From NCBI RefSeq assembly GCF_940670685.1, contig NZ_OW711693.1, positions 2,418,001 to 2,482,000 of the forward strand: a DNA stretch of 64,000 bases, read 5' to 3'. Within the stretch, counting starts at the first letter, position 1. Each line of letters opens with the position of its first letter. Positions 23,386 to 43,960 of the stretch are shown one piece after another. The translations under genes and the position numbers were made by a program. The notes below the pieces were generated by a model. That model was not told the DNA's origin and ran no database searches. It worked only from the letters and a program-made list of their open reading frames with translations. Source of the stretch: Anaeropeptidivorans aminofermentans (GTDB taxonomy: Bacteria; Bacillota; Clostridia; Lachnospirales; UBA5962).

Positions 23386-24888
23386 TTAGTAATACGCTGA
23401 AAAAACTTTGAAATAAATATTTACGTCCCCTTCTTTTGATACAGTTATTTTATCGATAATCTGCCTAAGCATCGTATTGTTTATATTCTGTGACGATATG
23501 ATGCAGCTGATGTCCTTAAATTTTTCATTTAGGATATTTTTTATGCTGTCGTTTTTGCCTAGGCTTTCTTTAATCAGCTCCAGTTCATTATTCAGCCTCT
23601 TTATTTCTTCATTCTGGTCTTTTGTATATTCTTTAAGCTCGCCTAAGGAAATAATCTCCGCTTCATACATATCCATATACTTTTTTTTGCTCTTCTTTAT
23701 CCTTTCTATTTCGCGTTTTATTTCCCTCTCCGTAATTATATCTGTATTGATGTTTTTATACTGCTTATCCAGCTCTTTTAAGATGTTTTGGGTAATGTTT
23801 TCCTTATCCTTTAGGATATTTAAAAAATACTTTTTTATTTCTTTAAGTAATATATCTTCGTCCACAACCACATTATTGGGGCAGCTATGAACCCCTCCTG
23901 TATTTCTTGTGGCGCATACCCATTTAATATATGTATTTTTATATTTTCTTTCGCACCTTCTAAAGGAGGCCCCGCAGTGTTCGCATTTTATCATTTTGCT
24001 GAAAGTATGCTTTTGTGAATTCCTTTCTTTTGTTCTTTTAAAGGCCTCTTTTCTGCTTCCCGTAATTCTTTTTGCCCTCTCAAACAGTTCATCAGAAATG
24101 AGCCTTAGTTCCGGTTTTTCCATAACAATCCATTGTTCTTTCTCAAGGCCTTTTCTTTCTCCTGTAAGAAAATCTTTTACTTCTTCTTTCCCGTTTATAA
24201 CCCTTCCTGTATATATGAGATTTCTTAAAAGGCGGCTTACTGCTATTTGAGTCCACTGAGCGTTTCGCTTTGTCTTTATATTTCTGGAATTAAGCTCCTG
24301 TGCAATTTTATTGGCTCCGAGATTTTTATTTACATACATGTCAAAAATTTCTTTCACTACTTCCGCCTCTGATTCATTTACCGTTAAATTAAAATAATCT
24401 CCCGGAGTTTTATCGTATCCGAAAACAAGATTAGGGACCCTCCCTTTTTCGGCGTTCACCTTTTTGCCGAACTTTATTCTTTTAGAAGTATTGTAGCTTT
24501 CCTCCTGAGCTATCGCCGAAAGCATTGTAAGCATAAACTCGGAACTGTCGGAAGATGTCTGGTCGTAATTAACAAATATTACTTTGATGCCTAAGGATTT
24601 CAACTGGCGTATGCTTGTCAAAAAATCCACTACATTTCTTGCAAGCCTCGAAATATCCTTTATAAGCACTACCTCAAACATCTGCTTATGAGCATCGGAA
24701 AGAAGCTGAATCAATTGATTTCTGTTTTTCATTCGTGTGCCGGTTTTGCCTTCATCGGCATATATTTTTATGAGGTCGTATCCGTTTTTTCTGGCATATT
24801 CTTCAAAAAAGCTCTGTTGGGTTTCTAAGCTGTCCAGCTGCTCGTCCTTATTGGTGGATACTCTCCCGTATGCAACAGCTTTTACCAT
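23386..24888 (-). CDS. Large serine recombinase
   Basis: Site-specific recombinase of the resolvase/invertase superfamily. N-terminal catalytic domain with YGRVSTNKDEQ (nucleophile Ser11) and IKDISRLARN (active-site arginine region), a Recombinase domain (about 170-280), and a zinc-ribbon starting CEHCGASFRRCERKYKNTY. A coiled-coil region rich in Lys/Glu follows (about 370-450). 500 residues, full length, and its start has AGGAGG five bases upstream. Unlike the second recombinase, its G+C content fits the host. No cargo or clear att sites were seen, so it may be a domesticated or stripped element. Confidence 0.92.
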   Translation of the reverse strand: MVKAVAYGRVSTNKDEQLDSLETQQSFFEEYARKNGYDLIKIYADEGKTGTRMKNRNQLIQLLSDAHKQMFEVVLIKDISRLARNVVDFLTSIRQLKSLGIKVIFVNYDQTSSDSSEFMLTMLSAIAQEESYNTSKRIKFGKKVNAEKGRVPNLVFGYDKTPGDYFNLTVNESEAEVVKEIFDMYVNKNLGANKIAQELNSRNIKTKRNAQWTQIAVSRLLRNLIYTGRVINGKEEVKDFLTGERKGLEKEQWIVMEKPELRLISDELFERAKRITGSRKEAFKRTKERNSQKHTFSKMIKCEHCGASFRRCERKYKNTYIKWVCATRNTGGVHSCPNNVVVDEDILLKEIKKYFLNILKDKENITQNILKELDKQYKNINTDIITEREIKREIERIKKSKKKYMDMYEAEIISLGELKEYTKDQNEEIKRLNNELELIKESLGKNDSIKNILNEKFKDISCIISSQNINNTMLRQIIDKITVSKEGDVNIYFKVFSAYY

Positions 24889-24972: not shown

Positions 24973-25339
24973 TATAGTAAATTTAAAGTTAAATAGCCGC
25001 AAAGCCGTATATCCCGGAAGGCTCAAAAATGCGTTTTAGAGTAAAATATCCTTCAGGAAGTAACAAAAATCTATTTTTCATAAACGGCTTAATATAATAG
25101 AAACGCTTATATTAAGCCATTCAAAATATACGATTTTTATTACTGTAATTAAACTATTTAACTATAGAAGAAATATAATAAAGCGCCTTTGTGAAATTGC
25201 TTTTATTTGAGTTTATATATTAAAAGGCTTATATCTGTTATGGTATAAAAGCAATTTCACTATGTTTCCGAAGGAAATCCGTGTTTTTGAGCCTTAAGGG
25301 AATAGGCTTTTGCTGCTTCTTCATGTTAAATTTACTATA
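24973..25339. repeat. Composite palindromic repeat upstream of the recombinase
   Basis: Begins with the family end TATAGTAAATTTAAAGTTAA (24973), includes a complete inner core (AGTAACAAAAATC, ACGGCTTAAT, TTAAGCCATT, GATTTTTATTAC) closed at 25161-25167 by ACTATAG, and continues to a second family end TTAAATTTACTATA at 25339. The outer part contains AAATTGCTTTTATTTGA and AAAAGCAATTTCAC, an inverted pair also found in related form near 49.1-49.3 kb. It looks like one unit inserted in or next to another. A promoter of the recombinase gene would have to lie between 24889 and 24972. Confidence 0.7.
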
Positions 25340-25409
25340 TAATAAAACCCTTGCTTAAAAGATTACCAGGTCTTCGGCTGATACTCTTTTAATTTATCTG
25401 AGCGAAGAT

Positions 25410-25446
25410 GAAAAATTACACAAGCGTAAGCTTGTACGTAGTTTTT
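25410..25446. terminator. Terminator downstream of the small ORF
   Basis: GAAAAATTAC and GTAGTTTTTC arms with an inner ACAAGC/GCTTGT stem and a GTAA loop. It lies 50 bases past the stop of the possible small gene at 25496-25649 on the minus strand. Confidence 0.65.
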
Positions 25447-25495
25447 CAAGTAAGTGTCTTTTTACAGTGAATAAATGTCTTTTCGCCTTTCTCCG

Positions 25496-25883: not shown

Positions 25884-25966
25884 GCCCGAGTGATGGAATG
25901 GCAGACATGGCAGACTCAAAATCTGCTCCAAGCAATTGGGTGGGGGTTCGAGTCCCTTCTCGGGCA
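25884..25966 (+). tRNA. tRNA-Leu (anticodon CAA)
   Basis: Class II tRNA of 83 bases: acceptor GCCCGAG/CTCGGGC, discriminator A, anticodon stem GCAGA/TCTGC with loop CTCAAAA, a long variable arm, and GGTTCGAGTCC in the T arm. Anticodon CAA reads TTG. The integrated element begins about 27 bases after its 3' end. Confidence 0.96.
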
Positions 25967-25986
25967 TCGGAAAAGACATACTTTTC
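25963..25986 (+). terminator. Left half of the split tRNA-Leu terminator
   Basis: GGCATCGGAAAAGACATACT and following TTTC begin inside the tRNA 3' end. The complementary arm is not nearby but at 41020-41045, on the far side of the 15-kb element. The intact tRNA-Ser terminator at 50570-50626 has the same design (arm starting inside the tRNA end, AAAAGACATA core), which supports reading this as a half hairpin. Confidence 0.8.
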
Positions 25987-26045
25987 GCTAAGTCCACGGT
26001 ATCATAAGGACAATTTAGGGAAAGCAAACTGAATACGGAGCATAA

Positions 26046-26086
26046 AAGCACAGGGAGTCGAATTATCGACTCCCTGTGCTTTTATG
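26046..26086. terminator. Terminator inside the element's left end
   Basis: AAAAGCACAGGGAGTCGA and TCGACTCCCTGTGCTTTT form long perfect arms with a short loop. It can end the surface-protein transcript on the minus strand and tRNA-Leu transcription on the plus strand, replacing the terminator split by insertion. Confidence 0.9.
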
Positions 26087-26111: not shown

Positions 26112-29100
26112 TCACGCCGTTTTGTCCACCTCATATCCATCTACTTTTGTGTTTTTGGCAAGGGAGCCGTCCGCATAGAAGTAGTACCACTTGCCGCCGA
26201 TCTCCAGCCATTTCCCGGACACCATGATGCCATCCTTGGTGAAGTAGTAGCGTTTGTCGCTGATGTCCAGCCAGCCCACAGCGGCCTTGTTCCCGGAATA
26301 GTACCGCCAGTTGCCTCCGTCCTTCACCCAGCCGGTTTTTAGTGCGCCGGTGGTTTCAAAGAAATACTTCACGCCGTCGATGGTCTGTGTGCCGGTGAGG
26401 GATTTGCCGTCCTTGTAGTACATATACTGTCCATCGTCATTCAGCGCCCATCCCTGCGCCGTGGCTGGGTCGATGGTCAGCTTGATGTAGCGGTGGAGCA
26501 TGGCGCTGACTTCGGCGCGGGTGGCGTTGGATTTGGGATTAAACTTGTTATTCGTTTCGCCCATCATAATCCCTGCCTGTTGCATAGCTGTTACCGCTGT
26601 TTTATAGGTGCTGCCGATGCTGGAAGCATCCGCATAGGCGGTTGCTTCACGGGTCACAGGCAGCTTGTAGCCGGTGACCTTGGCATAATTTACAAAGATT
26701 ACTGCTATTTCCTCACGGGTGATCGCACGGTCAGGGGCAAACTGCTGGTTACCGATGCCCTGCACAACACCTTTCTTGTACGCCCATTCGATGTAGGGAC
26801 GGAATGCGCTGTCTGCCTTTACATCGGTGAAGCTGTTGGTGGTGTATGCCTTCACATCCACGCCTGCCAGTCTGCCGAGAGCCGTCACCAGCATCCCGCG
26901 GGTCATGGATGCATCGGGTGCAAAGGTTGTTTTTGATGTGCCGGAGAGAAGCCCCCTGCCGACCACATAGTCAATCGCTTCCTTGCCCCAATGGTTTCCG
27001 ATGTCGGTGAACTTGGCGCTTGGAGCCGTGTAGCCCACGCCATACACCGAGAAATGGCCGGTAGGGATCAGCAGGCTTCCGCTGTTTGCGTCATAGGCGG
27101 AAGTGTCGATGCGGATTGCCTTACCATTTGCGTCCACATACACGCCGAACAGATAGCCGACAGCCTCATTCCTGTCCGGTGTGTAGGGGATGGAAAGGGT
27201 GGCTGTGCCGCTGCCAAGGCTGGTTACGTTGACAGTTTTGCCGTCCTTGACATAACTGATGGTGATGCTATAAACCGGCCTGTTTCCGAGGAGGGCCTTT
27301 GCTTCTTTAGAGAGACCTGTCGCCGGAACGATGGTGATGCTGATATCACCGCCGCTTTGCTTCTGGATTTCCTGTAAAGCCTTCAAGTCAAAACTCACGT
27401 CTACCGGAGAACCGGCGAGTGTAAGGCTGGATACCCCCGCGCTCACAAGACTGTTCAGCGAGTTGCGGGACAGGGTTGCTGTAAAGGAAGTTGTTCCCTG
27501 CGGCAGAGCGACATTCAGCGCTACAGCAATGCCATTGACTGTCTTTCCCTGCGCCTTTGCGTCGGTCTGTGCCTTGGTGATGGCATCGGTTATTGATTTC
27601 TCCGGAATGGACGCATTTGCCGCGCCGTTTGCCCCAGTCGTGGCTGTAACAGAGACCGTCGCCGTAACAGGCTGGTCTGGCTTCTTTGCAGGCGTAGTGA
27701 TTGCCGGTGTGCCCGGCGTATAGGAATCACCACCACCAGAGCCGCCGCCACCGTTATAGCTCCAGCTTGCCGTAACCGTCAGATCAGCGGTCACGTTATC
27801 AAAGGATTTATCCCAGCCAGTAAATGTGTAGCTGCTGCGGCTGACTGTGGGAGCCGTCGCTGCACTGCCCTTGGCAACGGTCTGTATCAGCTCGCCGCCG
27901 CCTGTACGGGTACCGCCATTTAAGTTGAAGGTGATAGTATAGGTCTGTTCCGCAACAGTCAATGTTCCGTCTGTGCGGGCTGTAATGCTGTAATTATCCG
28001 TTGCCGTGCCGCCTGTGAGCGTTATGGTATAGCTGCCCGGCGTATTGCCATTGAAGGTCGGGCAAGCCAGCGCAGGTTCTGTACTCAAGGCATCCGCTTT
28101 GGTCTTTCCGGGAGCCAGATTGCCTACTGTATAGGTAAGCTCCGGCAGGCTACTGCCCTTAATAACCGATTTATGATCTGCGGTAAGGGTAATCTGCCGC
28201 TTTTCGATGGTGAAGGTGAGCACCTCCCTGCCTGCGTAGTTTGCGTTGCTATCTGGCACGGAAATGGTCAGCTTATATGCGCCTGCGTTTGTGGGTGCTG
28301 TGCTGCTACTGTAGTCTGCGCCGTCAGTAGATTCATACAGCCATTCCAGTTGATTTATGGGAAAACTGTGGCTGCAAGTCACCGTGCCGGTAGGTGCATA
28401 GAAAGTGCCGTCGTAGGTTTTATTGGCGGTTGTGATGCCTCCAATGGTTACCAGAGTTTTATCCGCGACCGTTACCTTGCGACTTACCGTGAGGTCGCTT
28501 GGCAAGGTAATCCATGCCGGAGGGGAGGAATAGTTGATGGTTCCGGTAAAGGTCTGCTCGTTGCCTACAGCCGTTCTGTCCAACGTTTCTCCGCCGTTCC
28601 AATCGACAGTATAGGCAATGCTTTGGCCTTCTACCAGGATATTACCGCTTGCAGGCAGGATGGTGCTTCCCAATTCAGCGGCTGTAGCGGAGCTGTCGCT
28701 GTTTATAACCACCAGAGTGTCTCCGAAGGTCGGATTCGCCGCCGTAACCGGGGTGACCGTGACGGTTATGCTCTTGGAGATGCTGTTTGCGTCAATGTTT
28801 TCGTTGCCGGTGAGGGTTCCGGTCACAGCGTATTCTGTGCCCTTAATATTGTAGGCGGTGGAAGTTTCCCATGTAATTGGCAGCACTGCCGTACCGCCAT
28901 CGGTGCTGACGTTCACACTTGAAGGCAGACCTGCCGCATCCACAACAGCTTGTGCAGTTGTGGCGGTGCGCATTTCATAGGCGGTTTTGTTTGCGTTGTC
29001 CACAGTCGTGGTGATCTCTGACACCTTGGCCTGCTCAATGGTGAAATGGACCGTGACCAGATCAAGGGAAAGCTCGTAGTTTCCACCCGCACTTAAATTG

Positions 29101-32100
29101 CCGAGGGAAATGCCATAGGTCCCCACGTTTTCCCCTGCTGCACGACTGAGATTGCCGGTGAAAGCCTCCGGAGCCAAGCCAGCGCCATTTGTAAAGGTCA
29201 ATATTGGGTCAATCTTGCCATATTTTTTGCTCTGACCGGAGTGGGGCATGATGGTGATTGGCTTGGGAGCAATGGTGTAGCTGATGTTTTTCGTGCCGTA
29301 AAAGCTGCCGATGCCGGTGATGGTGAGCGTCACCGTTCCGGCGTTTGTGCCGTCGCTTGCGCTCCCGTCTGCTACCGCAACAGTATAATCGGTGTCCTTA
29401 ACCAGTGTTTCGCCGTCAAAGGTCAAGGCTGGGATTTGCTCACTGCCGTTATAAATGCGAGGGGCTGTGTCTGCTGCGGCATACTGGATATCCCGTGCTA
29501 TCAGATATAATCCGCCGTCGCCGTTCTGCCCCGCAAGCCCTTTTAGCGTGGGCAGCTTACCCTCGGCGAATGTCCAAACGCCGCTGTCCCAGGCAGATGT
29601 ATTCCAATTCTCCGCCGTCGTCCAGAAGCTGTCGCCAAACAGGGCCTGCGATGTCAAATCCACACCGTCTTTTGCATTTAGACCCTTATTTGCCCATGTG
29701 CCGGGTATGCGGCTGAACGCATAGTTGTTCAAGAGGGTGTCGGAGGTGTTTTTTCCCACCACGCGCCCGAAATTGTATGCTCCTGCGTTGATAGAAGGGT
29801 TAAGTGCCACACAATTTTTCACGGTGCCGCTGCTGAGAGTGCCCAGCACACCGCCAACATACCCCTCCGGATCCGTACCCAGAACGCTGCCGGTACTATA
29901 GCAATTTTTCACGGTGCCGCTGCTAACGTCTCCCGCAACGCCACCGACATAGAGAACGCCTTTGATATTGCCGGTGCTATAGCAATCTTGCACAGTAGCT
30001 ACCCCAACTCCTCCCACAATGCCACCGACATTGAACCGTCCGGAAACGCTGCTGCCGCTATAGCATCGCCGCACCGTAGTAGCATTGTTTTCGAGATACC
30101 CCATTATTCCGCCAATATAGTCACCGCTGCCGGTTACGCTGCCGGAGCTATAGCAGTCTTGTACCGTACCGCTGGAGATGCGCCCTACTGTTCCTCCGAC
30201 ATTATCCGCACCGGATATGTTGCCGATCACGGCGCAGTTCTCTACTGCCGCACCCCAAGCATATCCAGCTACGCCGCCGACACGGTTATTTCCGATGACG
30301 CTTGCGTCGATGATTCTGATATTCTGCACTTTGCTATCGACATAGAGATAGCCAAATAAACCGATGCAATCAGCCGCCGACCGGTTGATAGTTAGCCCGG
30401 TAATGGTTTTGTTGTTGCCATTAAAGTTTCCCTTGAATTGTTTTGCAGAGGTGCCAATGGGCATCCAGCCCTCCCTACTTGCATAGCTGGAAAGGTCAAG
30501 GTCATTTTCCAGCCTGTAATACCTTCCAGAATCTGCATAAGGTGAGGTTCCCGCATTCACCAGCTCCGCCAGCTTGGCAAGGTCTGCGGCGGTTTTGATA
30601 AGGTAGGGGTCGCCCTCGCTTGTGCCTGCGCCCTCAAAGAAGCTCGCGCCCGCCGGGAGCAAGTGCGCAGGCATGGAGGCGTCCTGCCCCGCAATGCCCT
30701 TGAGGATGGGCAGCTTGCCGGGTGCTATTTCCCATACGGTGGTATTCCAGTTTGCCGTAAAGCCCGTATCTTGCGTCCAGAAGTCCGCCGCACTGATTTC
30801 GGCGGCGGTTTTGGATAACCCGTCTACGCTGGTTGCATCGTTGTCGATTGCTTCCGAGCCACCGTTCTTTAACACTACCACACCATCAAAAGCCAAATTG
30901 CCACGTAGAGTCCCTTGATTAAATAGTACTAACACGCGCTCGACACCGCCTGAACCACTGACTGAGGGGTTAAGTGCAGCGCAATTTTCTACCCTGGGCC
31001 AACCTTGGACGCCCGAACCTTGGGCTTGACCCGCTATACCGCCGGCTTTGTAGCTGTCAGAGACGACGCCGGTGCTGTAGCAGTTTTCCACCGTGCCAGC
31101 GATGACAACCCCCGCCACGCCGCCAGCTATTTCAGCCCCGGAGATATTGCCGGTGCTGTAGCAGTCTTGTACATTGCCGCCCACGTCTACCTTGCCCACC
31201 ACCCCACCGGCAGAACCCTTTTGGCCTGTGCTTATCCGAGAAATATTTCCGGTGCTATAACAGTTTCTCACTATACCATCAACGCATCCCGCCACACCGC
31301 CTCGATCTTGACTCGAACTCTCTCCTGCGCTGTTGACATCGCAGGTACTATAGCAGTATTCCACTGTGCTGCTGTAGCCCACATAACCGACCACACCGCC
31401 GACAGAGTCTAAAGCGGTGATATTGCCCATAGTGTAACAATTTTGCAATGTGGCGGCTTCCATGAAGCCTGCGATGCCGCCGACCCTCTTGCCGCCGTTG
31501 ATGTAGACACCGGTAACACCGAGGTTTTTTACTGCTCCTCCACTGCCTATACACCCGAATAGTCCTTGATACATGACGCCTTCAAGGACATTATTGATGG
31601 TTAAGTTAGCAATTGTATTACCGTTTCCGTCAAATGTGCCATTAAATTTCATGTCGTATGCGTTGCCAATGGGCATCCAGCCCTCCCCGGTGGCATAGCC
31701 GGAAAGGTCGAGATCTTTCATCAGTCTGTAGTGTGCGGCATTATAGCTTGCGTTCCCTGCGTTTACAAGCCCCGCCAGCTTGGCGAGCTGGGCGGGGGTG
31801 CTGATTTGATATGGGTTTTCGCTGGTGCCAGCGCCGAAGAAATTCGGGTCGCTGCCGTCCACAATATGTGCGGGCAGGGCAACTGCCGCGCCAAAGCCGG
31901 GGAGCTTGCCGTTTTCTATTGTCCAACCGTTTTCCGTGGTAAACCGTCCGCCCAGTGTGCCGTCCGCCTTGATTTCGGCGGCTATTTTGGATTCACCGTC
32001 CATCTGATCCGCACCCTCAACAAGGGGTTTTGCATCGCCATCCTCCGTCACCGTCATGCCGCCAAAGGCGATGTTGCTGGAAAGGGGGATGTCATCGGCA

Positions 32101-33653
32101 ATTCCCACCACGCGCCCGACATCGCCTGAACCACTGACCGAGGGGTTCATCGCGGCGCAGTTTTCCACCGTGCCACCGTAGACATACCCCGCCACGCCGC
32201 CGACATGGTTGCCTGTGCCGCTGACCGCGCCGGTGCTGTAGCAGTTTTTCACACTGCCGCCGTCAACATACTCCACATGCCCCGCCACGCCGCCAACAGC
32301 GCTCTCGCCGCTGACGCTGCCGGTGCTGTAGCAGTTTTCTATCGTGCCGCCAACAACTGCCCCTGCCACGCCGCCGACATCGCTGCCTCCGCTGACGCTA
32401 ACATTCACCAGCCCCAAGCCGCCCACCTTGCCGCCTGTGCCGACAAAACCGAAAAAGCCCTGCGCATCTTCGCCGCTGCGGTTGATGGTCAGATTGCTGA
32501 TCCTGTGGCCGCCGCCGTCAAAGGTGCCCTCGAATGAATAGGAGTCATTGCCAATTGGCACCCAGCCCTCACCGCTAGAGTATGCCGAAAGGTCGAGGTC
32601 GTTCATCAGCTTCAGACTGACCTTTGCGCCTGCATCGTTAAACAAAAACAGCTCCAAGCCGTTTTCCCGCACATTCACCAGCGCGGCAATCTCGGCAAGC
32701 TGCGCCGCCGTGATGATTTCCAGCGGGCTGGCGCTTGTACCGCCGCCCGCCATGCGGGACATCTCTCCGCCGGCTGACTGCGGAATATACACCGTGATGC
32801 GGGGCGGCTCCACGCCGTCCGCAACGCCGCAGCCCTCGCCCAAAACGGCGGTAAACACATAGAGCCCCCGTTGAGGATTTTTTTGGTCATAATCCTGTTC
32901 TGTATCCCATGTCACCGGGATTTGAACCGTTTCGCCCTCGACCGTACCGCTTACGATTTCCGGGAATTCCGGTGCGGTGGCGTTCTGCCAGCGGATATCC
33001 TCGGGCAAATCGTCAAAGGCCGTCACTGTGCCTATAATGGTAACCGCACCAACGGTCACGGTGATTGCCGGGACTTCCACGCCGCTGGCAAGGGTAAGTT
33101 CCTCCGGCAGCTCGGGAGTGAAAATATATGTACCCGCTGCTTCACCGTTGTATTCCGGCGATGAAGTCCATGTGACAGGCAGGGGGACGGTGATTTCCTT
33201 GGCACTGTCCACGGTTTTCTCCGTGGGTTCGGCTTCAGAGCTGTCCCCGATTTTTTCCGCGTCGGAGGGAGAGGCGATTTCATCTCCCTCGCTGTCGCTG
33301 ATTTCGGATTCCTCCATTTCTTCAACGCCAATCGCTGACCCGCTTACCGTATCGGCGCTGTCTGAATCCGAATCAGCGCCCCCTGAATCCAGCACCGCTT
33401 CTTCTTCCAAAGCCGCAAGCCGTACCGTTGCCGTCAGGGTATCCGGCAGCTTCAAATCCGCTTCGGATGTGCCAATCGGCACATTCTGAACTGCAATATC
33501 CCACTCCAGCGCCTCAAAGGCGGTTACCTCGCCGCTTGCGCCAATAGGGAATGAGCCTGTTTCAGCCAGCGCCGAGACAGGCGTCATACCCACAACCATG
33601 ATGACGGACAACACCATAGCCGTGAGCCTTTGAATTGCTTTCCTTTTGCTCAT
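26112..33653 (-). CDS. Giant secreted surface protein: GLUG, MBG, SLH and cell-wall-binding repeats
   Basis: 2513 residues, secreted and held on the cell surface. Signal peptide about residues 1-33 (cleavage after SALA), Ig-like region with an acidic Ser/Asp/Glu linker (about 90-145), then three large blocks (starting near residues 306, 620 and 1020), each opening with a module containing AQLA(K/E)LA, LDLS and a GxFDG/FxG pattern and continuing in many GLUG repeats of the type GGVAGxxxGGTVxNCYSTG. MBG-type (about 1400-1850) and InlB-like (about 1905-1975) domains follow, then three SLH domains (about 2214-2391) and glucan/choline-type wall-binding repeats to the end. Start ATG 33653 has GGAGG seven bases upstream. 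Divergent from a TetR gene. Likely an adhesin; the ligand is unknown. Repeat number may vary by recombination. Confidence 0.9.
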   Translation of the reverse strand: MSKRKAIQRLTAMVLSVIMVVGMTPVSALAETGSFPIGASGEVTAFEALEWDIAVQNVPIGTSEADLKLPDTLTATVRLAALEEEAVLDSGGADSDSDSADTVSGSAIGVEEMEESEISDSEGDEIASPSDAEKIGDSSEAEPTEKTVDSAKEITVPLPVTWTSSPEYNGEAAGTYIFTPELPEELTLASGVEVPAITVTVGAVTIIGTVTAFDDLPEDIRWQNATAPEFPEIVSGTVEGETVQIPVTWDTEQDYDQKNPQRGLYVFTAVLGEGCGVADGVEPPRITVYIPQSAGGEMSRMAGGGTSASPLEIITAAQLAEIAALVNVRENGLELFLFNDAGAKVSLKLMNDLDLSAYSSGEGWVPIGNDSYSFEGTFDGGGHRISNLTINRSGEDAQGFFGFVGTGGKVGGLGLVNVSVSGGSDVGGVAGAVVGGTIENCYSTGSVSGESAVGGVAGHVEYVDGGSVKNCYSTGAVSGTGNHVGGVAGYVYGGTVENCAAMNPSVSGSGDVGRVVGIADDIPLSSNIAFGGMTVTEDGDAKPLVEGADQMDGESKIAAEIKADGTLGGRFTTENGWTIENGKLPGFGAAVALPAHIVDGSDPNFFGAGTSENPYQISTPAQLAKLAGLVNAGNASYNAAHYRLMKDLDLSGYATGEGWMPIGNAYDMKFNGTFDGNGNTIANLTINNVLEGVMYQGLFGCIGSGGAVKNLGVTGVYINGGKRVGGIAGFMEAATLQNCYTMGNITALDSVGGVVGYVGYSSTVEYCYSTCDVNSAGESSSQDRGGVAGCVDGIVRNCYSTGNISRISTGQKGSAGGVVGKVDVGGNVQDCYSTGNISGAEIAGGVAGVVIAGTVENCYSTGVVSDSYKAGGIAGQAQGSGVQGWPRVENCAALNPSVSGSGGVERVLVLFNQGTLRGNLAFDGVVVLKNGGSEAIDNDATSVDGLSKTAAEISAADFWTQDTGFTANWNTTVWEIAPGKLPILKGIAGQDASMPAHLLPAGASFFEGAGTSEGDPYLIKTAADLAKLAELVNAGTSPYADSGRYYRLENDLDLSSYASREGWMPIGTSAKQFKGNFNGNNKTITGLTINRSAADCIGLFGYLYVDSKVQNIRIIDASVIGNNRVGGVAGYAWGAAVENCAVIGNISGADNVGGTVGRISSGTVQDCYSSGSVTGSGDYIGGIMGYLENNATTVRRCYSGSSVSGRFNVGGIVGGVGVATVQDCYSTGNIKGVLYVGGVAGDVSSGTVKNCYSTGSVLGTDPEGYVGGVLGTLSSGTVKNCVALNPSINAGAYNFGRVVGKNTSDTLLNNYAFSRIPGTWANKGLNAKDGVDLTSQALFGDSFWTTAENWNTSAWDSGVWTFAEGKLPTLKGLAGQNGDGGLYLIARDIQYAAADTAPRIYNGSEQIPALTFDGETLVKDTDYTVAVADGSASDGTNAGTVTLTITGIGSFYGTKNISYTIAPKPITIMPHSGQSKKYGKIDPILTFTNGAGLAPEAFTGNLSRAAGENVGTYGISLGNLSAGGNYELSLDLVTVHFTIEQAKVSEITTTVDNANKTAYEMRTATTAQAVVDAAGLPSSVNVSTDGGTAVLPITWETSTAYNIKGTEYAVTGTLTGNENIDANSISKSITVTVTPVTAANPTFGDTLVVINSDSSATAAELGSTILPASGNILVEGQSIAYTVDWNGGETLDRTAVGNEQTFTGTINYSSPPAWITLPSDLTVSRKVTVADKTLVTIGGITTANKTYDGTFYAPTGTVTCSHSFPINQLEWLYESTDGADYSSSTAPTNAGAYKLTISVPDSNANYAGREVLTFTIEKRQITLTADHKSVIKGSSLPELTYTVGNLAPGKTKADALSTEPALACPTFNGNTPGSYTITLTGGTATDNYSITARTDGTLTVAEQTYTITFNLNGGTRTGGGELIQTVAKGSAATAPTVSRSSYTFTGWDKSFDNVTADLTVTASWSYNGGGGSGGGDSYTPGTPAITTPAKKPDQPVTATVSVTATTGANGAANASIPEKSITDAITKAQTDAKAQGKTVNGIAVALNVALPQGTTSFTATLSRNSLNSLVSAGVSSLTLAGSPVDVSFDLKALQEIQKQSGGDISITIVPATGLSKEAKALLGNRPVYSITISYVKDGKTVNVTSLGSGTATLSIPYTPDRNEAVGYLFGVYVDANGKAIRIDTSAYDANSGSLLIPTGHFSVYGVGYTAPSAKFTDIGNHWGKEAIDYVVGRGLLSGTSKTTFAPDASMTRGMLVTALGRLAGVDVKAYTTNSFTDVKADSAFRPYIEWAYKKGVVQGIGNQQFAPDRAITREEIAVIFVNYAKVTGYKLPVTREATAYADASSIGSTYKTAVTAMQQAGIMMGETNNKFNPKSNATRAEVSAMLHRYIKLTIDPATAQGWALNDDGQYMYYKDGKSLTGTQTIDGVKYFFETTGALKTGWVKDGGNWRYYSGNKAAVGWLDISDKRYYFTKDGIMVSGKWLEIGGKWYYFYADGSLAKNTKVDGYEVDKTA

Positions 33654-33787
33654 ACCGTTTCCTCCATTTCGTATTCTTAAAAACCTTGTTCCGTAATGAA
33701 CAGACCCATTTACCTGTCTTATGAAAATACAGAGAGTTCCGCACAATCACTTGAATTCTGATTTAATCAGTGATACACTAATTTTAA

Positions 33788-33866: not shown

Positions 33867-34490
33867 ATGGAGGATAAAAAAACAGACAAGCGAAAAGCGC
33901 AGGGCGCCGAAACAAAAAGAAAGCTGATTGAAATTTCAAAACGGCTTTTTACGGAGCGCAGCTTTTCCGAGGTTGGTGTCGAGGATATCACTGATGAGGC
34001 CGGGATTACGAAGGGCGCATTCTATGTGCATTTTGCGTCTAAGGATGCGCTGATTGCCCTGCTGATTGCCGATTACACCGCACGCACGGATGCGGACTAC
34101 AAAGCGGTGTTTGATACGCTTCCCCCTAATATGCCTGCCTCCGGAGTGCTGCTTGCTTTAACCGAAAAAATAGCCGATGTGCTGACGGGCGACATCGGCT
34201 ATGATAATATTAAAAAAATCTATCAAATTCTGCTGACAGGGGTGGTGGACGCCAAGGCCGTCAAAAGCTATGACAGAGAGTTGTATACACTGTTTTATGG
34301 CATATTGGAACAGGGAATCCACAATGGAGAGTTTCAGAGTGATCTGCCGGTAGAGGTGCTATCACGGCACTTTGTGATGGCGATTCGGGGCATTTGCATC
34401 GACTGGTGCATCCAATACCCGAATGTTGACTTGAAGGCGCAGTCGCTGGAGCATTGCCAGATGCTGATGCAGGGATTGCAAAACGAATAG
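33867..34490 (+). CDS. TetR-family regulator, paralog 1
   Basis: 207 residues. The N-terminal helix-turn-helix (RKLIEISKRLFTERSFSEVG, then VEDITDEAGITKGAFYVHF, residues about 18-60) is classical TetR. The C-terminal ligand domain is all-helical. AGGAG precedes the ATG. It closely resembles the protein encoded at 34667-35287 throughout, so the two arose by duplication; they are convergent. Divergent from the surface-protein gene with an operator-like inverted repeat between, which suggests control of that gene. Ligand unknown. Confidence 0.93.
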   Translation: MEDKKTDKRKAQGAETKRKLIEISKRLFTERSFSEVGVEDITDEAGITKGAFYVHFASKDALIALLIADYTARTDADYKAVFDTLPPNMPASGVLLALTEKIADVLTGDIGYDNIKKIYQILLTGVVDAKAVKSYDRELYTLFYGILEQGIHNGEFQSDLPVEVLSRHFVMAIRGICIDWCIQYPNVDLKAQSLEHCQMLMQGLQNE

Positions 34491-34666: not shown

Positions 34667-35287
34667 TCAAACAGTAATCCCTTCAATCAACAGTCTGCAA
34701 TGCTCTACGGATTGTTCTTTCAGGTCAAAATCGGGATAGCGGATACACCATTCAAAGCTGATGCCCCGAAGCGCCGCAACGAAATGGCGTGCCAGTGTTT
34801 CGGCGGACAATGTGCTTTTTAGTTCTCCCTGACCAATTCCTTTCTCCAGGATGCCGTGAAACAGCAAATACAATTCCCGCCCATAGCCTTTTACCGCTTC
34901 GGTATCCACTGTTCCCGCCAGCAGCATCTGGTAAACCTTTTTCATATTCTCACAGCCGATTGTCTCTATAAGGACTTCAGCTATTTTCTCAGTCAGAGCC
35001 AAAAGCACATTAGATGTAGGCATATCAGCAGGCAGCGCTTCCAAAAACGCCTTATAGTCCGTATCGGCGCGGGAGGCATAATCCGCAATTACCATTGCGA
35101 TGAGGGCATCTTTAGATTCAAAATGCACATAGAACGCACCTTTGGTAATCCCGGCTTCGTCGGTGATATCCTCAACCATGACATCGGCATAATTATGTTC
35201 CTTAAACATTCTTTCCGCGATTTCATATAGCTTCTTTTTTGTTTCGGCGCCCTGCACCTTTCTTTTATCCGGTTTTTTCTGTCTCAT
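34667..35287 (-). CDS. TetR-family regulator, paralog 2
   Basis: 206 residues with the same layout and much the same sequence as paralog 1: KKLYEIAERMFKEHNYADVM, VEDITDEAGITKGAFYVHFE and a matching C-terminal domain including EHCRLLIEGI. Ribosome binding site and leader (AGAGGAGAAAAACT) also resemble those of paralog 1. A separate palindrome upstream at 35351-35370 suggests it binds a different operator and may regulate itself. Confidence 0.93.
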   Translation of the reverse strand: MRQKKPDKRKVQGAETKKKLYEIAERMFKEHNYADVMVEDITDEAGITKGAFYVHFESKDALIAMVIADYASRADTDYKAFLEALPADMPTSNVLLALTEKIAEVLIETIGCENMKKVYQMLLAGTVDTEAVKGYGRELYLLFHGILEKGIGQGELKSTLSAETLARHFVAALRGISFEWCIRYPDFDLKEQSVEHCRLLIEGITV

Positions 35288-35487: not shown

Positions 35488-36405
35488 TTACCTGTTGTTC
35501 AGCTTCGCCTCATATTCCGTCAGGTCAAATACCTTTTTCTCAGCCTTGGCCTTTAAGTAGTCAGGCAGCGTCTCATCCCGAAGCTTTTCCGCAAAGTCTG
35601 CCCACTCGGTGAATTCCGGCTTGCTCATGGTCTTTTTCAGCACGCGGGCGTAATATTTCTTGTAGGCGCGCTGGTGCAGCTTCCAGACATCGTTGCTTTC
35701 AGTTTTTTCCTTAAAGCTTCTGGCGGCGCCGAGCTCACGGCAGGTCTGCCCGCCCTCGAAAACACTGTCGCAATATTCATAGTGAAAGCCTTTTTCCAGC
35801 AGAAAATATTGTCCGCAGAGCTTACACTGTTTGGGAACGCAGCCCTTTAGGATGCCTTTGAAAAAATCCGTGTAGAGAAAATCCAGCAGCCGCGTAAAGG
35901 TCATGCGTTCAAACAACGCCGCTTTTCCGTTTTCATCCTCCAAAAGCAGATACTGAAGACTGGAAACTGCCGCCGTCCGCTGCTCCGACGCACCCATGGT
36001 TTTGTCGGCTACAAAAGAACCCATGCCGTTCTTGGCAATCTGTTGGATAAAGCTCTTGTCTTTTTTCAAGCTTACATCCTTCAAAAAAACGCGGTAACAC
36101 CCCAGCAGTTCCAAGTCCTCCAGTAGGGCGGCGTACTCCCCTTCGGTCGCGCCGCTCAGTCTGTCCGGGTTGGGAAAATCCCGAAACAGGGGCATCTCCA
36201 AAATTATTTCATTTATCCTGTCTGTGCCGCAGCCTTGTGCCGCGGCACTTTTATATTCCCCCATATCATAATTCAAAAAGGCAGTGAAAAGCTCGTTGTA
36301 CTTGTAGCTCCGCCTGTTTATTTCAATATGCGTCTCCCCGAAAAGAACATCAAACGAAAAGAAGCCGGTATCGTCCGGAAACAGGTCTTTAAAAAACAGC
36401 GCCAT
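35488..36405 (-). CDS. Zinc-ribbon protein, DUF6076-like, unknown function
   Basis: 305 residues. A cysteine cluster near residues 195-230 (PKQCKLCGQYFLLEKGFHYE, then YCDSVFEGGQTC) looks like a treble-clef zinc site. The C-terminal part is rich in basic and aromatic residues (HQRAYKKYYARVLKK). The pattern fits the DUF6076 group found with clostridial mobile elements, but this assignment is from memory and tentative. GAGGTG precedes the ATG. It is divergent from the RepA-like ATPase gene. DNA binding is possible; no function is known to me. Confidence 0.7.
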   Translation of the reverse strand: MALFFKDLFPDDTGFFSFDVLFGETHIEINRRSYKYNELFTAFLNYDMGEYKSAAAQGCGTDRINEIILEMPLFRDFPNPDRLSGATEGEYAALLEDLELLGCYRVFLKDVSLKKDKSFIQQIAKNGMGSFVADKTMGASEQRTAAVSSLQYLLLEDENGKAALFERMTFTRLLDFLYTDFFKGILKGCVPKQCKLCGQYFLLEKGFHYEYCDSVFEGGQTCRELGAARSFKEKTESNDVWKLHQRAYKKYYARVLKKTMSKPEFTEWADFAEKLRDETLPDYLKAKAEKKVFDLTEYEAKLNNR

Positions 36406-36554: not shown

Positions 36555-37607
36555 ATGCTAAAGAAATTAGAAACCATGGATGCGGAAACCCTGATGACCA
36601 CACCCATGGAGCCGATCAGGTTTATTGTAAGCGGATTAATTCCGCAGGGGCTGCATATCCTTGCAGGCTCTCCGAAAGTCGGCAAGAGCTGGCTGGCGCT
36701 CTGGATTTGTCTGCAGGTAACAAAGGGAGAACCGGTGTGGGGGTTCGAAACCCGAAAGTGCGAGGTGCTCTATCTCTGTCTGGAGGACAGCTTCGCCCGC
36801 ATCCAAAGCAGATTGTTTGAAATTACGGAAGAAGCTCCACCCACTTTACACTTTGCTATTATGAGCGACGCCATCGGAAACGGTCTGGAGCTTCAGATTG
36901 AGAATTTCCTTGCAGAGCATCCCTGCACGGGATTGATTGTCATTGATACCCTGCAAAAGGTTCGCAAAACGGTTTCCTCCAATGTGAATCCCTATGCCGC
37001 CGACTATGATGACATTTCTGCTCTCAAGGGGCTGGCAGACCAGCACAGGCTTGCTATCGTACTCGTCCACCATCTACGGAAAAGTGCTGACAACGATCCG
37101 CTGAACATGATATCCGGCACCACGGGAATTGCGGGCGGCACGGACAGCAGCTTCATCCTGCAGAAAGAAAAAAGAACAGAAACCACGGCAACTCTCATCT
37201 GCACCGGCAGGGATATTGAAAGCCGGGAACTGTTTTTGGGGTTCAACAAAGATACTTTCCTTTGGGAGCTGCTCCAACCGATTGAAGCGGCAGAGCACAA
37301 AGCGGACGAGGTGATTTTACTTCTCTCTGACTTTATGAAATCGGCGGTTGTGTTCACAGGAACCGCTACCGAGCTTGCGGAGCGGCTCAAGCTGTTTGGC
37401 GGAACGGAATATCTCCCGGCGGTTCTGAAGAAGAAAATCATGAAACACATGGACTATCTTCAGAAAAACAAGATTTCCTATTCCGATCAGCGCAGCTTTG
37501 AACGGCGGGAGTTTACCCTCCGTTATGACGGCAATGACGGCATGACGGCAGAAAACGCCCCCACAGATTTGCCGTCTTTGCCGTCACAGCCGTCAGCAGA
37601 GGTATAA
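36555..37607 (+). CDS. RepA-like AAA ATPase (AAA_25 family)
   Basis: 350 residues. Walker A GSPKVGKSW around residue 39, Walker B TGLIVIDTLQKV, and a RecA-like core with VLVHHLRKSADNDPLNMISG, matching hexameric plasmid RepA/DnaB-like helicases of the AAA_25 type. Such proteins are common in clostridial integrative elements near the recombinase, and may act in replication or processing of the excised circle. The C-terminal part (about 255-330) resembles a winged helix. GGAGG lies ten bases before the start. A hairpin-rich non-coding region follows directly. Confidence 0.85.
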   Translation: MLKKLETMDAETLMTTPMEPIRFIVSGLIPQGLHILAGSPKVGKSWLALWICLQVTKGEPVWGFETRKCEVLYLCLEDSFARIQSRLFEITEEAPPTLHFAIMSDAIGNGLELQIENFLAEHPCTGLIVIDTLQKVRKTVSSNVNPYAADYDDISALKGLADQHRLAIVLVHHLRKSADNDPLNMISGTTGIAGGTDSSFILQKEKRTETTATLICTGRDIESRELFLGFNKDTFLWELLQPIEAAEHKADEVILLLSDFMKSAVVFTGTATELAERLKLFGGTEYLPAVLKKKIMKHMDYLQKNKISYSDQRSFERREFTLRYDGNDGMTAENAPTDLPSLPSQPSAEV

Positions 37608-37985
37608 TCGCTCCACGTTGCCCCTTGTGTCGCCCTGTGTGCCGGTTTTGACCGGCAGGATGGCATTCCTGCACCGAACCAGAGTAAAACCGCAGCGTGA
37701 GGGCTTTGTGCCGAGCGTTTGGGAAAGAGCACCGGCTCCTGAATCCGGAGTTCTCCACGGTAGAAAGGATGAGCAGGATAAAGTCAGGTGACCGCAAGCG
37801 GCCCCCTGACGGTCACAGCGTCCCGCAGTGCGGGGCGCAGAGCGGCATTGTACGGTGGTCGGACAAGGTGCCCTAAATCAAAATGGGTATTCCTTCGGGA
37901 AGTCCGGGGGGCAGAAAACACCGGGATGCCAGCCGCTATCCCGGATGTCCACAACGGAAAATAAGCGAAAAAGGAGATTTTCACA
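37608..37985. other. Hairpin-rich non-coding block, candidate origin of transfer or replication
   Basis: About 380 G+C-rich bases without a gene. Hairpins seen: GCCGGT/ACCGGC (37641-37656), CAGGA/TCCTG (37656-37671), GTGACCG/CGGTCAC (37788-37816), CCCGC/GCGGG (37822-37834), TTCC-TTCG-GGAA near 37893-37904, CCGGGAT/ATCCCGG (37921-37944). It lies between a RepA-like ATPase and ribbon-helix-helix genes, the usual place for an oriT or replication origin in such elements. No relaxase gene is present in the element. Confidence 0.45.
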
Positions 37986-38417
37986 ATGAATGACAGCAAC
38001 AAAGCCAAAGTAGGGATTCACATGAGGCCGGAGCTCATCGCCCGGGTGGATGCGGAATACCCTCTGTACGATTACCCCAGCCGCAGTGCCTTTATCGGTG
38101 CGGCGACCGAGTTCTATCTCGGCTATCTTCACAGCCAGAGCGACGCCGATTACATGAGTAAAACCACCCTCGCGTTTCTGGAGGATCAGGTCACAAAGCT
38201 GGATGCCAAGATCTGCCGTCAGTTGTTTCGCCTGTGCGTAGAACTGTCCATGGTGGCCCATGTGACCGCTGCTATTGTCCCCGGAGCCAATGAGGAAACG
38301 CTGAAACGGCTGCGCACCAAGTGCGTCAAGGATGTGAAAAACACCATCGGCAACATCCGGTATGACAGCATTTACGCTCACCAGCACGCCATGACAGAGG
38401 CGGATGACTATGAGTAA
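37986..38417 (+). CDS. Ribbon-helix-helix protein, element-encoded
   Basis: 143 residues. The N-terminal 45 residues (KVGIHMRPELIARVDAEYPL, then SRSAFIGAATEFYLGYL) fit a ribbon-helix-helix DNA-binding fold. The helical C-terminal part (about 60-135) probably mediates assembly. AAGGAG precedes the ATG. It overlaps the next gene by about 14 bases. Likely binds the hairpin block just upstream or regulates this gene set; MobC-like roles are possible. Confidence 0.7.
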   Translation: MNDSNKAKVGIHMRPELIARVDAEYPLYDYPSRSAFIGAATEFYLGYLHSQSDADYMSKTTLAFLEDQVTKLDAKICRQLFRLCVELSMVAHVTAAIVPGANEETLKRLRTKCVKDVKNTIGNIRYDSIYAHQHAMTEADDYE

Positions 38418-38844
38418 GACAGAAAAAATAACGGTATCGCTGCCAAGCGATACCATCAGACTGGCCGATGAAAAATATTTGGAGTTTGGCTTTTCCAACC
38501 GCTCAGAGCTCATCAATGCCGCCATCCGTGAGTACCTCAGCCGTGATCTGATGCGGCAGTTTACCGGTGAGCTGGCGAGTGTCTACCAGAAAATCGAGCG
38601 TAGTGAAATCAAGGAGCTGGAGCAGCATCTCTCCAAGCTCTCCTACAAAATCGCCGTGGAGCTGGCACAAATCTATATGCTGCTGGCGACCGCCATGGAG
38701 CTTCCCTATGATGTTGACCGCAGCCTGCGGGGGAAAGCAGTCAAGTAGGTCAACCATCTGAAGGGCTTTGTACCCATCTCCAAGGCTGTGAAGGAAACCG
38801 AAGGAATCACAGGGACAGAGGAAGAATCCGAAGATTTCTTTTGA
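38404..38844 (+). pseudogene. Second ribbon-helix-helix protein, interrupted by in-frame TAG
   Basis: Begins with a clear ribbon-helix-helix domain (KITVSLPSDTIRLADEKYLE, then SNRSELINAAIREYLSRDL) and runs 114 codons to TAG at 38746-38748. The same frame then stays open for another 31 codons (VNHLKGFVPISKAVKETEGI and on) to TGA at 38842-38844, ending in an acidic tail. A GAG-to-TAG change is the simplest explanation. The DNA-binding half is intact, so the shortened product may still work. Starts: ATG 38404 or ATG 38410. Confidence 0.65.
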
Positions 38845-38926
38845 CATGAACCCTTGCCGCCCTTCTCCGGCGGCAGTACATACCCCGGCACACAGTCAGG
38901 GGAAAACAAAAAAGGAGAAGTGCTAT

Positions 38927-39172
38927 ATGAAAGAAAACAAATGCAACGGCGTCTATGCCGCGAGCAACCCCCACATCCTATCCCCCTTCGGCTATCCTGT
39001 TCTCACCTTTGACGACACGCTGGCCGTTATCTCCGAGGAGGGATTCTTCCGGGAAAGAGAGATGGTTCTGGAGGGAAAGCCCTTCAAAGTCCGTTCCTTC
39101 TTCCGGCCGGTTTCTTCTGAAACCGCTACGGACAAACTGCTCCGCCTCATTGATGCGGGGCAAAATCGGTAA
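38927..39172 (+). CDS. Small conserved-type hypothetical protein of the element
   Basis: 81 residues (MKENKCNGVYAASNPHILSP at the start, ending LLRLIDAGQNR). The start ATG 38927 has AAGGAG eight bases upstream; an in-frame ATG at 38846 lies before that site and is rejected. No domain recognised. It lies between the ribbon-helix-helix genes and the recombinase in the same direction and is probably co-transcribed. Its place suggests a recombination directionality factor, but this is only a guess from position. Confidence 0.6.
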   Translation: MKENKCNGVYAASNPHILSPFGYPVLTFDDTLAVISEEGFFREREMVLEGKPFKVRSFFRPVSSETATDKLLRLIDAGQNR

Positions 39173-39255
39173 TCTTTTCTTTGGCATAGACTTGTGCGAA
39201 CCGTTGCGGTATGATGTGTACTACCGTATTCGGTTTGCCGGAAAGGAGCTTACAG

Positions 39256-40923
39256 ATGAAACAGGCAAACGAAAAATACACGATTTTATACGCAAGACTC
39301 AGCCAGGACGACGGCAGTCAGGGAGACTCCAACAGCATCCAGAACCAGAGGATGATGCTGGAGAAGTACGCAAAGGACAATGGATTTGAGAATGTGAAAT
39401 TCCTGTATGACGACGGTGCGTCCGGCACAAATTTCAACCGGCCTGCCTTTCAAGAGGCAATGGAGCTCATCGAAAACGGAGAGGTTGCAACCTTTATCGT
39501 CAAGGATATGAGCCGGTTGGGTAGGGAGTATTTAGAGGTCGGCAGGCTGACAGAAATCGTGTTCCCAAGCTACGGCGTGCGGTTTATCGCCATGAATGAC
39601 GGCGTGGACAGCCTCTACGGTGATAATGAATTCACCCCGTTCAAAAATATCATCAACGAATGGTACGCGAAAGACTGCAGCAAAAAGGGAAAAGCCGCCG
39701 CTAAAATCAAAGCGGAAAGCGGAGCGAGGGTTGGCTCAAGACCGCCCTTCGGGTATCAGAAAGACCCTGCCGACCCCAAGCGCAAAATCATTCCCGATGA
39801 AGAAACCGCGCCCATTGTCAAGTACATTTTCTCTCTATGCATGAATGGAAAGGGCCCTACTCAGGTTGCGGTGCAGCTTCGAGAGGAGCAGATTCCCATC
39901 CCCGCCTATTACTATCACAAGAAAAACGGAGTCAAGATTGTCGGCTTCGATCCTGTCCAACCGTACTACTGGTCATCCACAACCGTAGGAAAGATATTGG
40001 AGGATGAGGTTTACCTCGGACACACCATCAACCTCAAATATACCACCTTGTCCTACAAAAACAAGAAACGTGTCAAGCGCCCTGTGTCGGAAAGAATTCG
40101 GATTGAGAACACTCACGAGCCGCTGATAGACCAGAGCACTTGGAATATCGTGCAGGACATCCGCAGGCACAAGCGCCGTCCGGCCAAGATGGCGGAGCAG
40201 AATATGTTCTCCGGACTGATTTACTGCAAGGACTGCGGAAAGGCGATGGTGCTCAGTCGGGCTCATACTATGGACGCAGTCAAAAACAACTTCCAATGCG
40301 CCACCTACAGGAAAAGAGGCAAGGAAACCTGTTCCGGGCATTACATCCGGGAATCCCAGCTCACCGCCATCCTTCTGGACGATCTCTGCAGGGTGACCCA
40401 CTTCGCGAGGCAGAACGAACTGCTCTTCGCGAAACACATAACCCAAAAGAACGGCACTGAAATCCGACGTGAGATTGCCCGTGTCGAGCGTGAACTGGAA
40501 TCGCTCAAACGGAGGGACACGGAGCTGAGCGCATTATTCAAAAGGCTGTATGAAGACAATGTTCTTGGCAAAATCCCAAATGAGGTGTTCCGAAAGCTCA
40601 GCGACGACTACTTTGCCGAGCAAAAAGAAATCCAGACCGCCATCCCGAAGAATGAGGGCGAACTGGAAAAGCTGAAGGGCTCGGTGGCCAATGTCAGCGC
40701 CTTCATTGAAAAGGCGAAGCAATATACGGAAATCAATGAGCTCACCGCTGAAATACTGAACCTCTTTATTGAGCGGGTGGAGGTCGGTGAACGTGAGGGA
40801 AAATGGTCTCACACTGCCCCGCAGGAAATCAATATTTACTACAGGGACATTGGCTTGATGGACAGCGTGACCGAACAGAAAACAGAGCAGGAAGCACAGG
40901 GCGATTCACCAGAGGTCGCATAA
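39256..40923 (+). CDS. Large serine recombinase of the integrative element
   Basis: 555 residues; expected to insert and excise the element. Catalytic domain with ILYARLSQDDG (nucleophile Ser16) and VKDMSRLGREYLEVG, then a Recombinase domain (about 175-290), a zinc-ribbon beginning CKDCGKAMVLSRAHTM, and a coiled coil (about 400-490). The pattern is that of Tn4451 TnpX/Tn5397 TndX-like enzymes. AGGAG nine bases before ATG 39256 fixes the start. It reads toward the right end and stops about 100 bases from it. Confidence 0.94.
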   Translation: MKQANEKYTILYARLSQDDGSQGDSNSIQNQRMMLEKYAKDNGFENVKFLYDDGASGTNFNRPAFQEAMELIENGEVATFIVKDMSRLGREYLEVGRLTEIVFPSYGVRFIAMNDGVDSLYGDNEFTPFKNIINEWYAKDCSKKGKAAAKIKAESGARVGSRPPFGYQKDPADPKRKIIPDEETAPIVKYIFSLCMNGKGPTQVAVQLREEQIPIPAYYYHKKNGVKIVGFDPVQPYYWSSTTVGKILEDEVYLGHTINLKYTTLSYKNKKRVKRPVSERIRIENTHEPLIDQSTWNIVQDIRRHKRRPAKMAEQNMFSGLIYCKDCGKAMVLSRAHTMDAVKNNFQCATYRKRGKETCSGHYIRESQLTAILLDDLCRVTHFARQNELLFAKHITQKNGTEIRREIARVERELESLKRRDTELSALFKRLYEDNVLGKIPNEVFRKLSDDYFAEQKEIQTAIPKNEGELEKLKGSVANVSAFIEKAKQYTEINELTAEILNLFIERVEVGEREGKWSHTAPQEINIYYRDIGLMDSVTEQKTEQEAQGDSPEVA

Positions 40924-40971
40924 AACGGCAACGGCAGACAGCGGAAATCCACTGCCTGCCGATACATACCG

Positions 40972-41015
40972 CCCCACTTCACCACGGTTTAGAAAATGTC
41001 CCTATCACACCGTGG
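40972..41015. other. Right end of the element (attachment site half)
   Basis: CCACGGT near 40982 and ACCGTGG at 41009-41015 form an inverted repeat around TTAGAAAATGTCCCTATCAC. The outer segment 40998-41015 is the inverted counterpart of the left end at 25994. Large serine recombinase att sites commonly have such imperfect symmetry. Confidence 0.6.
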
Positions 41016-41019
41016 GGAA

Positions 41020-41045
41020 GGGGAAAGTATGTCTTTTCTGATGCC
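41020..41045 (+). terminator. Right half of the split tRNA-Leu terminator
   Basis: GGGGAAAGTATGTCTTTTCT plus GATGCC complements 25963-25986 (GGCATC, GAAAAGACATAC, TTT) with one mismatch and a G-U pair. Removing the element would give a hairpin with loop GCTAAG directly behind tRNA-Leu. Confidence 0.8.
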
Positions 41046-41133
41046 GATAAAGTATGGTATTATGAGTATAGGATTTCCGCTCTAATCAATTAGATAAATA
41101 AGAATTTAACGTAAAAATGAAAGGGTGGTAAAA

Positions 41134-41559: not shown

Positions 41560-41631
41560 ATTTCCAGTTTGCCGGTCGGACTATAAGTAATGCCCTCCCA
41601 TGCTGTCAAATCTTTTTTACATTGTTTCTCC

Positions 41632-41677
41632 AAAGAAACAGACAGATTTCTATAAAGAAATTTGTCTGTTTCTTTTT
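41632..41677. terminator. Terminator after the VOC gene
   Basis: AAAGAAACAGACA and TGTCTGTTTCTTT arms with an inner ATTTCT/AGAAAT stem, followed by T-rich sequence. Confidence 0.88.
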
Positions 41678-43941: not shown

Positions 43942-43960
43942 TAAGAAATGTGAAAGTACC

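Follow-up and report, generated by a model that had tools for sequence, protein, structure and literature searches.

Split intrinsic terminator at the ends of a 15,028-bp element points to transcription terminators as probable landing sites of a group of DUF4368 large serine recombinases

Multi-targeting large serine recombinases (LSRs) with a DUF4368 domain, for example Cp36, have been described with a target motif that runs from an A-rich stretch through AA to a T-rich stretch (Durrant et al. 2022, PMC10083194; available portion of the text). For Tn4451, a 2-bp core and low target specificity are given in the available part of a further source (PMC5704250). Intrinsic terminators are also the insertion points of group IIC (class C) introns, according to the accessible portion of a paper that cites Robart 2007 for this point (PMC4424553).

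Here we describe an element of 15,028 bp in the window (the whole stretch of DNA analysed, 64,000 nucleotides), with a core dinucleotide AA at 25990–25991 (attL) and at 41018–41019 (attR). With a probability of roughly 0.88, the two ends are the attL and attR sites of an element whose own DUF4368 LSR joins the element site attP to a host site attB, attB being an intrinsic terminator that is cut at an AA in its loop.

Alignment of positions 25963–26016 with the reverse complement of 40993–41045 yielded a near-perfect inverted match with a score of 61; the chance level, taken as the best score among 2000 random pairs of window stretches, was 36. A step in G+C content from ~35% to ~53% coincides with the element borders. 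The attL core lies 24 nt past the 3' end of tRNA-Leu(CAA), and the first 4 nt of the left attB half overlap the 3' end of the tRNA. The features assigned to the two ends are as follows.

25884–25966, plus strand: tRNA-Leu(CAA), intact despite the insertion (ARAGORN, Rfam tRNA)
25963–25989, plus strand: attB, left half, which supplies the 5' half-stem of the host's terminator; pairs with 41020–41045 when joined
25990–25991, plus strand: AA core of attL, which comes to lie in the apical loop once the outer arms are joined; common with 41018–41019 and most relatives
25992–26020, plus strand: P' arm (element half of attL), kept in the second copy and in relatives
40982–41017, plus strand: P arm (element half of attR), near-identical in the second copy and conserved in relatives
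41018–41019, plus strand: core dinucleotide AA at attR, matching the attL core
41020–41045, plus strand: attB, right half, which supplies the 3' half-stem and the T-rich segment of the host's terminator; pairs with 25963–25989

The initial annotation had placed an inverted match at 25994 and 40998–41015. The match is present, with CCACGGTATCATAAGGACA at 25994–26012 and GTCCCTATCACACCGTGG at 40998–41015; its extent was drawn too short, the outer arm GGCATC(G/A)GAAAAGACATACTTT having been overlooked. The trinucleotide AAG does lie at both junctions (25990–25992 and 41018–41020), yet as a common core it has to be reduced to AA, which is found at both ends and in relatives generally, whereas the G is not generally shared. 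Comparison across relatives shows that the G 3' of AA is derived from the element at the left end and from the target at the right end. We infer that AA is the dinucleotide cleaved by the recombinase. The inner CCACGGT/ACCGTGG symmetry ascribed to the right end was recovered at 40982–40988 and 41009–41015; it recurs in a second copy of the element, with TACCGTGG as its second arm. Reading the imperfect symmetry as that of attL and attR was correct but incomplete, since it stems partly from attP and partly from a split host hairpin.

The second copy emerged from a search of the same genome, which yielded a second LSR, 93% identical to that of the window, in a second element that is largely collinear with the window element. 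Its inner arms are nearly identical to those of the window element; its outer arms are akin to the window's, yet they mirror each other with differences of their own. Because the inner arms are conserved and the outer arms vary between the two copies, we assign the inner arms to the element (attP halves) and the outer arms to the host (attB halves). In the two copies and in relatives alike, each end combines an attB half and an attP half on the two sides of a short shared core, with conserved inner and variable outer arms. The borders proposed at the outset, and their assignment to the attL and attR of an LSR, are both borne out by the second copy and by the relatives. ARAGORN found no tRNA gene upstream of the second copy.

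The element carries nine open reading frames that were scanned with Pfam.

26112–33746, minus strand: cargo, a 2544-aa surface protein with GLUG, MBG, SLH and choline-binding repeats (Pfam); homologue in the second copy
33867–34490, plus strand: TetR-family regulator (Pfam)
34667–35287, minus strand: TetR-family regulator (Pfam)
35488–36405, minus strand: DUF6076 protein (Pfam)
36555–37607, plus strand: AAA_25 / DnaB-like ATPase (Pfam)
37986–38417, plus strand: small protein, no match in the Pfam scan
38404–38748, plus strand: ribbon-helix-helix protein (Pfam RHH_1)
38846–39172, plus strand: TnpW-like ORF (Pfam PF14202 at 22.6 bits, under the 25-bit cut-off)
39256–40923, plus strand: large serine recombinase of 555 aa with Resolvase, Recombinase, Zn-ribbon and DUF4368 domains (Pfam, alignment)

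The 555-residue enzyme named earlier is thus the ORF that begins at 39256; it would comprise 570 aa if the start were taken at 39211. Domains PF00239, PF07508 and PF13408 score over the cut-off, and DUF4368 (PF14287) is matched at 72.9 bits. LSRs are characterized by a conserved N-terminal Y-x-R-x-S with the nucleophilic serine; Tyr12, Arg14 and Ser16 are invariant across three aligned LSRs, with Ser16 as the predicted nucleophile. The nearest solved structure is the N-terminal catalytic domain of TnpX (2mhc).

Further recombinase genes and repeats were seen in this genome. Just left of tRNA-Leu, at 23386–24888 on the minus strand, the window holds a second, unrelated large serine recombinase of 500 aa, whose nearest NCBIfam models are cassette chromosome recombinases, far below the cut-off. 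Elsewhere in the genome (G000:C1:1468731-1473593; L011–L013), three serine recombinase genes that are 30–34% identical to the window LSR stand in tandem on the same strand. Two host interspersed repeat families lie in the window outside the element: one of ~47 bp at 25300–25348, with some 40 near copies genome-wide on both strands, and one at ~25399–25490, with several copies in the genome.

When the outer arms are joined across the AA, the window element and the second copy each yield a terminator-like hairpin with AA in the loop; the DNA folds of the joined sites have z values of −11.8 (window) and −7.2 (second copy). A scan of genome contigs for relatives returned 46 loci. In the 24 loci read in which the LSR is at least 55% identical, the right-end core is followed, by eye, by a half-stem and T's, and the stems differ by host. 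A run of at least four T at +8 to +24 occurs in 24 of 25 right arms of the first set and 15 of 16 reverse-complemented left arms, against a background of 426 of 3343 AA positions sampled from the loci; held-out right arms carry it in 14 of 19 cases. The positions of the right-end cores were set by eye from the conserved inner arm, and the chosen core holds no AA in G619, G609, G551, G516, G827a–c, G759 and L081, where it is possibly misplaced. L082, whose right end has no clear core, was left out of the counts; L201, which is the right end of L039, and L227 (G524), which is the L055 contig, were each counted once with their duplicates.

Left ends were taken from the loci themselves or from elsewhere in the same genomes. 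For 13 pairs, matched left and right arms folded at −23.2 kcal/mol compared with −10.2 kcal/mol for mismatched arms (0 of 20,000 permutations). Six more pairs were gathered after the idea had formed: L154 and L155, for which the prediction had been set down, together with G619, G645, G690 and G597 from a family-wide search that produced matches in 21 of 400 genomes. Among these six, the matched arrangement ranks best of 720 possible. The left end of L154 has the top score among 12,047 candidate AA positions and that of L155 ranks second among 13,095, and each was accepted since a P' arm follows. Over all 19 pairs, which are not wholly independent because similar sites occur in the window, the second copy and L037, and likewise in L048 and L052, the mean fold is −22.3 kcal/mol matched and −9.7 kcal/mol mismatched (0 of 20,000 permutations); a fold of −18 kcal/mol or lower is reached by 14 of 19 matched and 17 of 342 mismatched pairs. 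An explicit terminator rule (stem of at least 5 pairs including at least 3 G-C, loop of 3–8, T-rich tail, either strand) is satisfied by 15 of the 19 two-ended elements, the window element and the second copy among them, and by 81 of the 342 mismatched left/right pairs. At the level of sequence, the split-terminator geometry is thus present in most relatives, and it suggests that terminators serve as landing sites for a whole group of LSRs.

In a tree of 47 LSRs, the 25 of the terminator type all fall on one side of a branch with support of 99/95. The 21 more distant LSRs in the tree have their ends elsewhere as far as these were legible, many of them in a conserved coding stretch as judged by eye; L077, L078, L080, L081 and L082 are left out of this tree, and L010, the 22nd, bears the label 'other' provisionally. 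Enzymes 80–93% identical to the window LSR occupy unrelated stems (L042, L043, L040) with different neighbours. Of 392 genomes covered by an order-wide search, 4 gave matches, one of them being the window's own, and the viral contigs searched contained no relative.

The exceptions concern hairpins, T-runs and missing ends. The joined arms of L038, L041 and G645 form no hairpin, and the joined hairpin of L040 is weak. By eye, L038, L041 and G645 have at least one terminator-like half each, a pattern that could reflect subsequent rearrangement of one of the two ends. T-runs are absent from the right arms of G827a, G827b, G827c and G759. In an LSR tree (in which the placements of L193 and L198, read in the wrong frame, are meaningless) the G827 LSRs are nested beside those of G516 and G690, whose right ends carry a T-run; given this position amid T-run-bearing relatives, the terminator habit seems to change within the group. 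L221 and L223, both from G827, are two elements with 57%-identical LSRs, and both end in the G+C-rich GAGAGGCGGCCCCTAC, possibly a dispersed palindromic repeat, not in a T-tract. The left end of L156 was not found within 58 kb, and those of L229, G484, G609, G674, G683, G516 and G827b were sought and not found; as judged by eye only, L229 and L230 have T-rich right ends. For L228 (Bacillus badius, LSR 45% identical), with ends read by eye, the joined fold has a z of −1.48 and 15 of 200 shuffles were equally good, no clear advantage over shuffled sequence. A restriction-modification island of type III is present at L231 (~37760–49901) and L228 (Bacillus badius plasmid pPM400); besides the 45%-identical LSR it has TnpW and a primase of the P4 type. 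The island has a T-rich right end, and on the left it probably starts near L231:37770. In Clostridiales bacterium CCNA10 (G014), L139 and L140 provide matching left and right ends of this family at a distance of ~97 kb; if the two belong to one element, it would be exceptionally long.

Empty sites were obtained for one relative. The joined flanks of L045 were searched in 31 genomes of its genus, of which 30 matched, the occupied genome included; 12 loci were returned, 1 occupied and 11 unoccupied. All 11 unoccupied loci (three of them identical) have a tRNA-Ser followed directly by an unbroken hairpin. No empty site was obtained for the window insertion in its genus, which is represented by one genome. 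Among five family relatives, the tRNA-Leu has a hairpin directly 3' in one (L238), a G+C-rich folded stretch in L237 and neither in the other three. The window's own genome has four vacant hairpins whose stems are related to that of the occupied site, and one of the four is the following hairpin of the window.

50579–50617, no strand assigned: unoccupied hairpin of similar stem, 3' of tRNA-Ser, its loop containing AA (stem likeness, fold)

It is possible that this hairpin is an unused attB in the same genome. Both it and the stretch at ~51771–51820 are terminators of the host, and their stems are akin to that of the occupied site (AAAAGACATAGC...); a single family of terminator stems seems to be used repeatedly in this genome.

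In the mechanism that we propose, the circular element would carry a dyad attP made up of the right end, AA and the left end (CCGTGGGG-AA-GTCCACGG). LSR dimers on attP and on the terminator would make 2-bp staggered cuts at AA, and the strands would be exchanged by rotation and then religated; staggered 2-bp cleavage, rotation and religation are established LSR chemistry. After a cut in the terminator loop, the two ends of the insertion would each retain one half-stem together with the A- or T-tract that belongs to it; tRNA-Leu would remain whole and its terminator would be split. A candidate for a replacement lies just inside attL.

26041–26086, no strand assigned: perfect 21-bp hairpin with a 4-nt loop (fold, explicit terminator rule)

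This hairpin is called on both strands by the explicit terminator rule and is not called by a stock terminator scan. All 15 left ends that were folded have a strong hairpin within the first 170 bp of the element, with sequences that differ between most of them. In the window, the hairpin probably takes over termination for tRNA-Leu and ends the large cargo gene.

We infer that the preference for terminators is a property of the recombinase itself, and we lean slightly towards the view that it is exerted through sequence only: the enzyme would read A- and T-tracts set at fixed distances about a central AA, terminators would be hit for containing such sequences, and the hairpin would be a by-product. 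The half-sites are loosely conserved save for the T-tract. Ranked by a half-site matrix alone (8.9 bits per half), most real sites come close to the top among 17,193 AA positions, so sequence explains much of the targeting. L040 and L154 combine weak hairpins with good tracts. The published Cp36 motif, A-rich 5', AA core and T-rich 3', comes from insertions in human DNA, so that a hairpin would not be strictly needed (PMC10083194, available portion). Against sequence-only targeting, strong hairpins were found in 7 of 43 matrix-matched intergenic background sites and in 10 of 12 real sites (Fisher 3e-5; three of 15 real sites fell under the matrix cut and four G-labelled pairs were left out). 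We entertain as a tentative alternative that the recombinase recognises the terminator as a structure, that is, as a dyad stem and perhaps as a cruciform or a transcription-exposed hairpin, and not only its A- and T-tracts; for a structure-guided serine integrase of this kind, nearly every intrinsic terminator would be a usable site, irrespective of the sequence of the stem.

The same counts bear on survivorship, in which insertion would be loosely specific and insertions in terminators would persist as the least harmful. Many sites are intergenic or behind tRNA genes, where insertion is tolerated, and the background sites likewise come from living genomes; however, these intergenic background sites do not match the real ones in their hairpins (7/43 vs 10/12), and the paired cases have the core within the apical loop, whereas tolerance alone would scatter insertions across whole intergenic regions. 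We consider this explanation improbable. The resemblance among the outer arms of the window, the second copy and L037 could be taken to mean that the enzyme is specific for a single sequence 3' of tRNA-Leu, in the manner of many phage integrases. Such single-site targeting is very improbable and was rejected, being contradicted by the unrelated stems that the 80–93% identical enzymes occupy and by a second copy that stands behind no tRNA gene detected by ARAGORN. A conventional DDE transposon or IS bounded by terminal inverted repeats would explain why the ends are inverted repeats, but it is hardly credible here and was likewise rejected: the outer halves vary between copies with the host site, only two bases are generally common to the ends, and Pfam found no DDE transposase among ten ORFs scanned, the recombinases there being serine recombinases.

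An intrinsic terminator split by the element's own LSR remains the reading that we prefer, and it can be set against the described systems. The window LSR resembles the multi-targeting DUF4368 enzymes in its DUF4368 domain, in the many targets of its close relatives and in the motif as given in the available portion of PMC10083194. It differs from that account, in which Cp36 can be likened by description only, in that the natural targets here are terminators with paired stems; the words 'terminator' and 'hairpin' have 0 occurrences in the searched text of that paper. The type of LSR is known, and the connection to terminators was not found in the literature searched: a full-text search, whose coverage takes in few preprints and subscription papers, returned no statement of a serine recombinase that targets terminators. 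The connection would lend biological sense to the A-rich/AA/T-rich motif of multi-targeting LSRs, which are now in use as genome-engineering tools. Terminators, which are abundant, dispersed and safe to break if the newcomer supplies its own, would be the sites at which these enzymes naturally land. Targeting of this kind predicts integration sites, accounts for insertion beside tRNA genes without touching the tRNA, and makes hairpin sensing by a serine integrase directly testable.

With TnpX and TndX (Tn4451/Tn4453 and Tn5397), the element shares the nearest structure, the TnpX N-terminal domain 2mhc, and a TnpW-like neighbour gene; plasmid-borne tndX matches are only ~39% identical to the window LSR, and LSRs 36–42% identical to it have their ends in other sites by eye. 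It departs from an integrative mobilizable element of the Tn4451 type in that Pfam found no relaxase (Mob) gene among its nine scanned ORFs. As with tRNA-gene integrases, left ends are found directly 3' of a tRNA gene (6 of the 16 read); here, in contrast, the target is the terminator of the tRNA and not the tRNA gene, and no tRNA 3' end is duplicated. The likeness to group IIC introns, which are RNA-based retroelements that insert after a terminator motif (PMC4424553, accessible portion), is an analogy only: in elements of the window type, a serine recombinase would split the loop and bring in some 10–20 kb of DNA.
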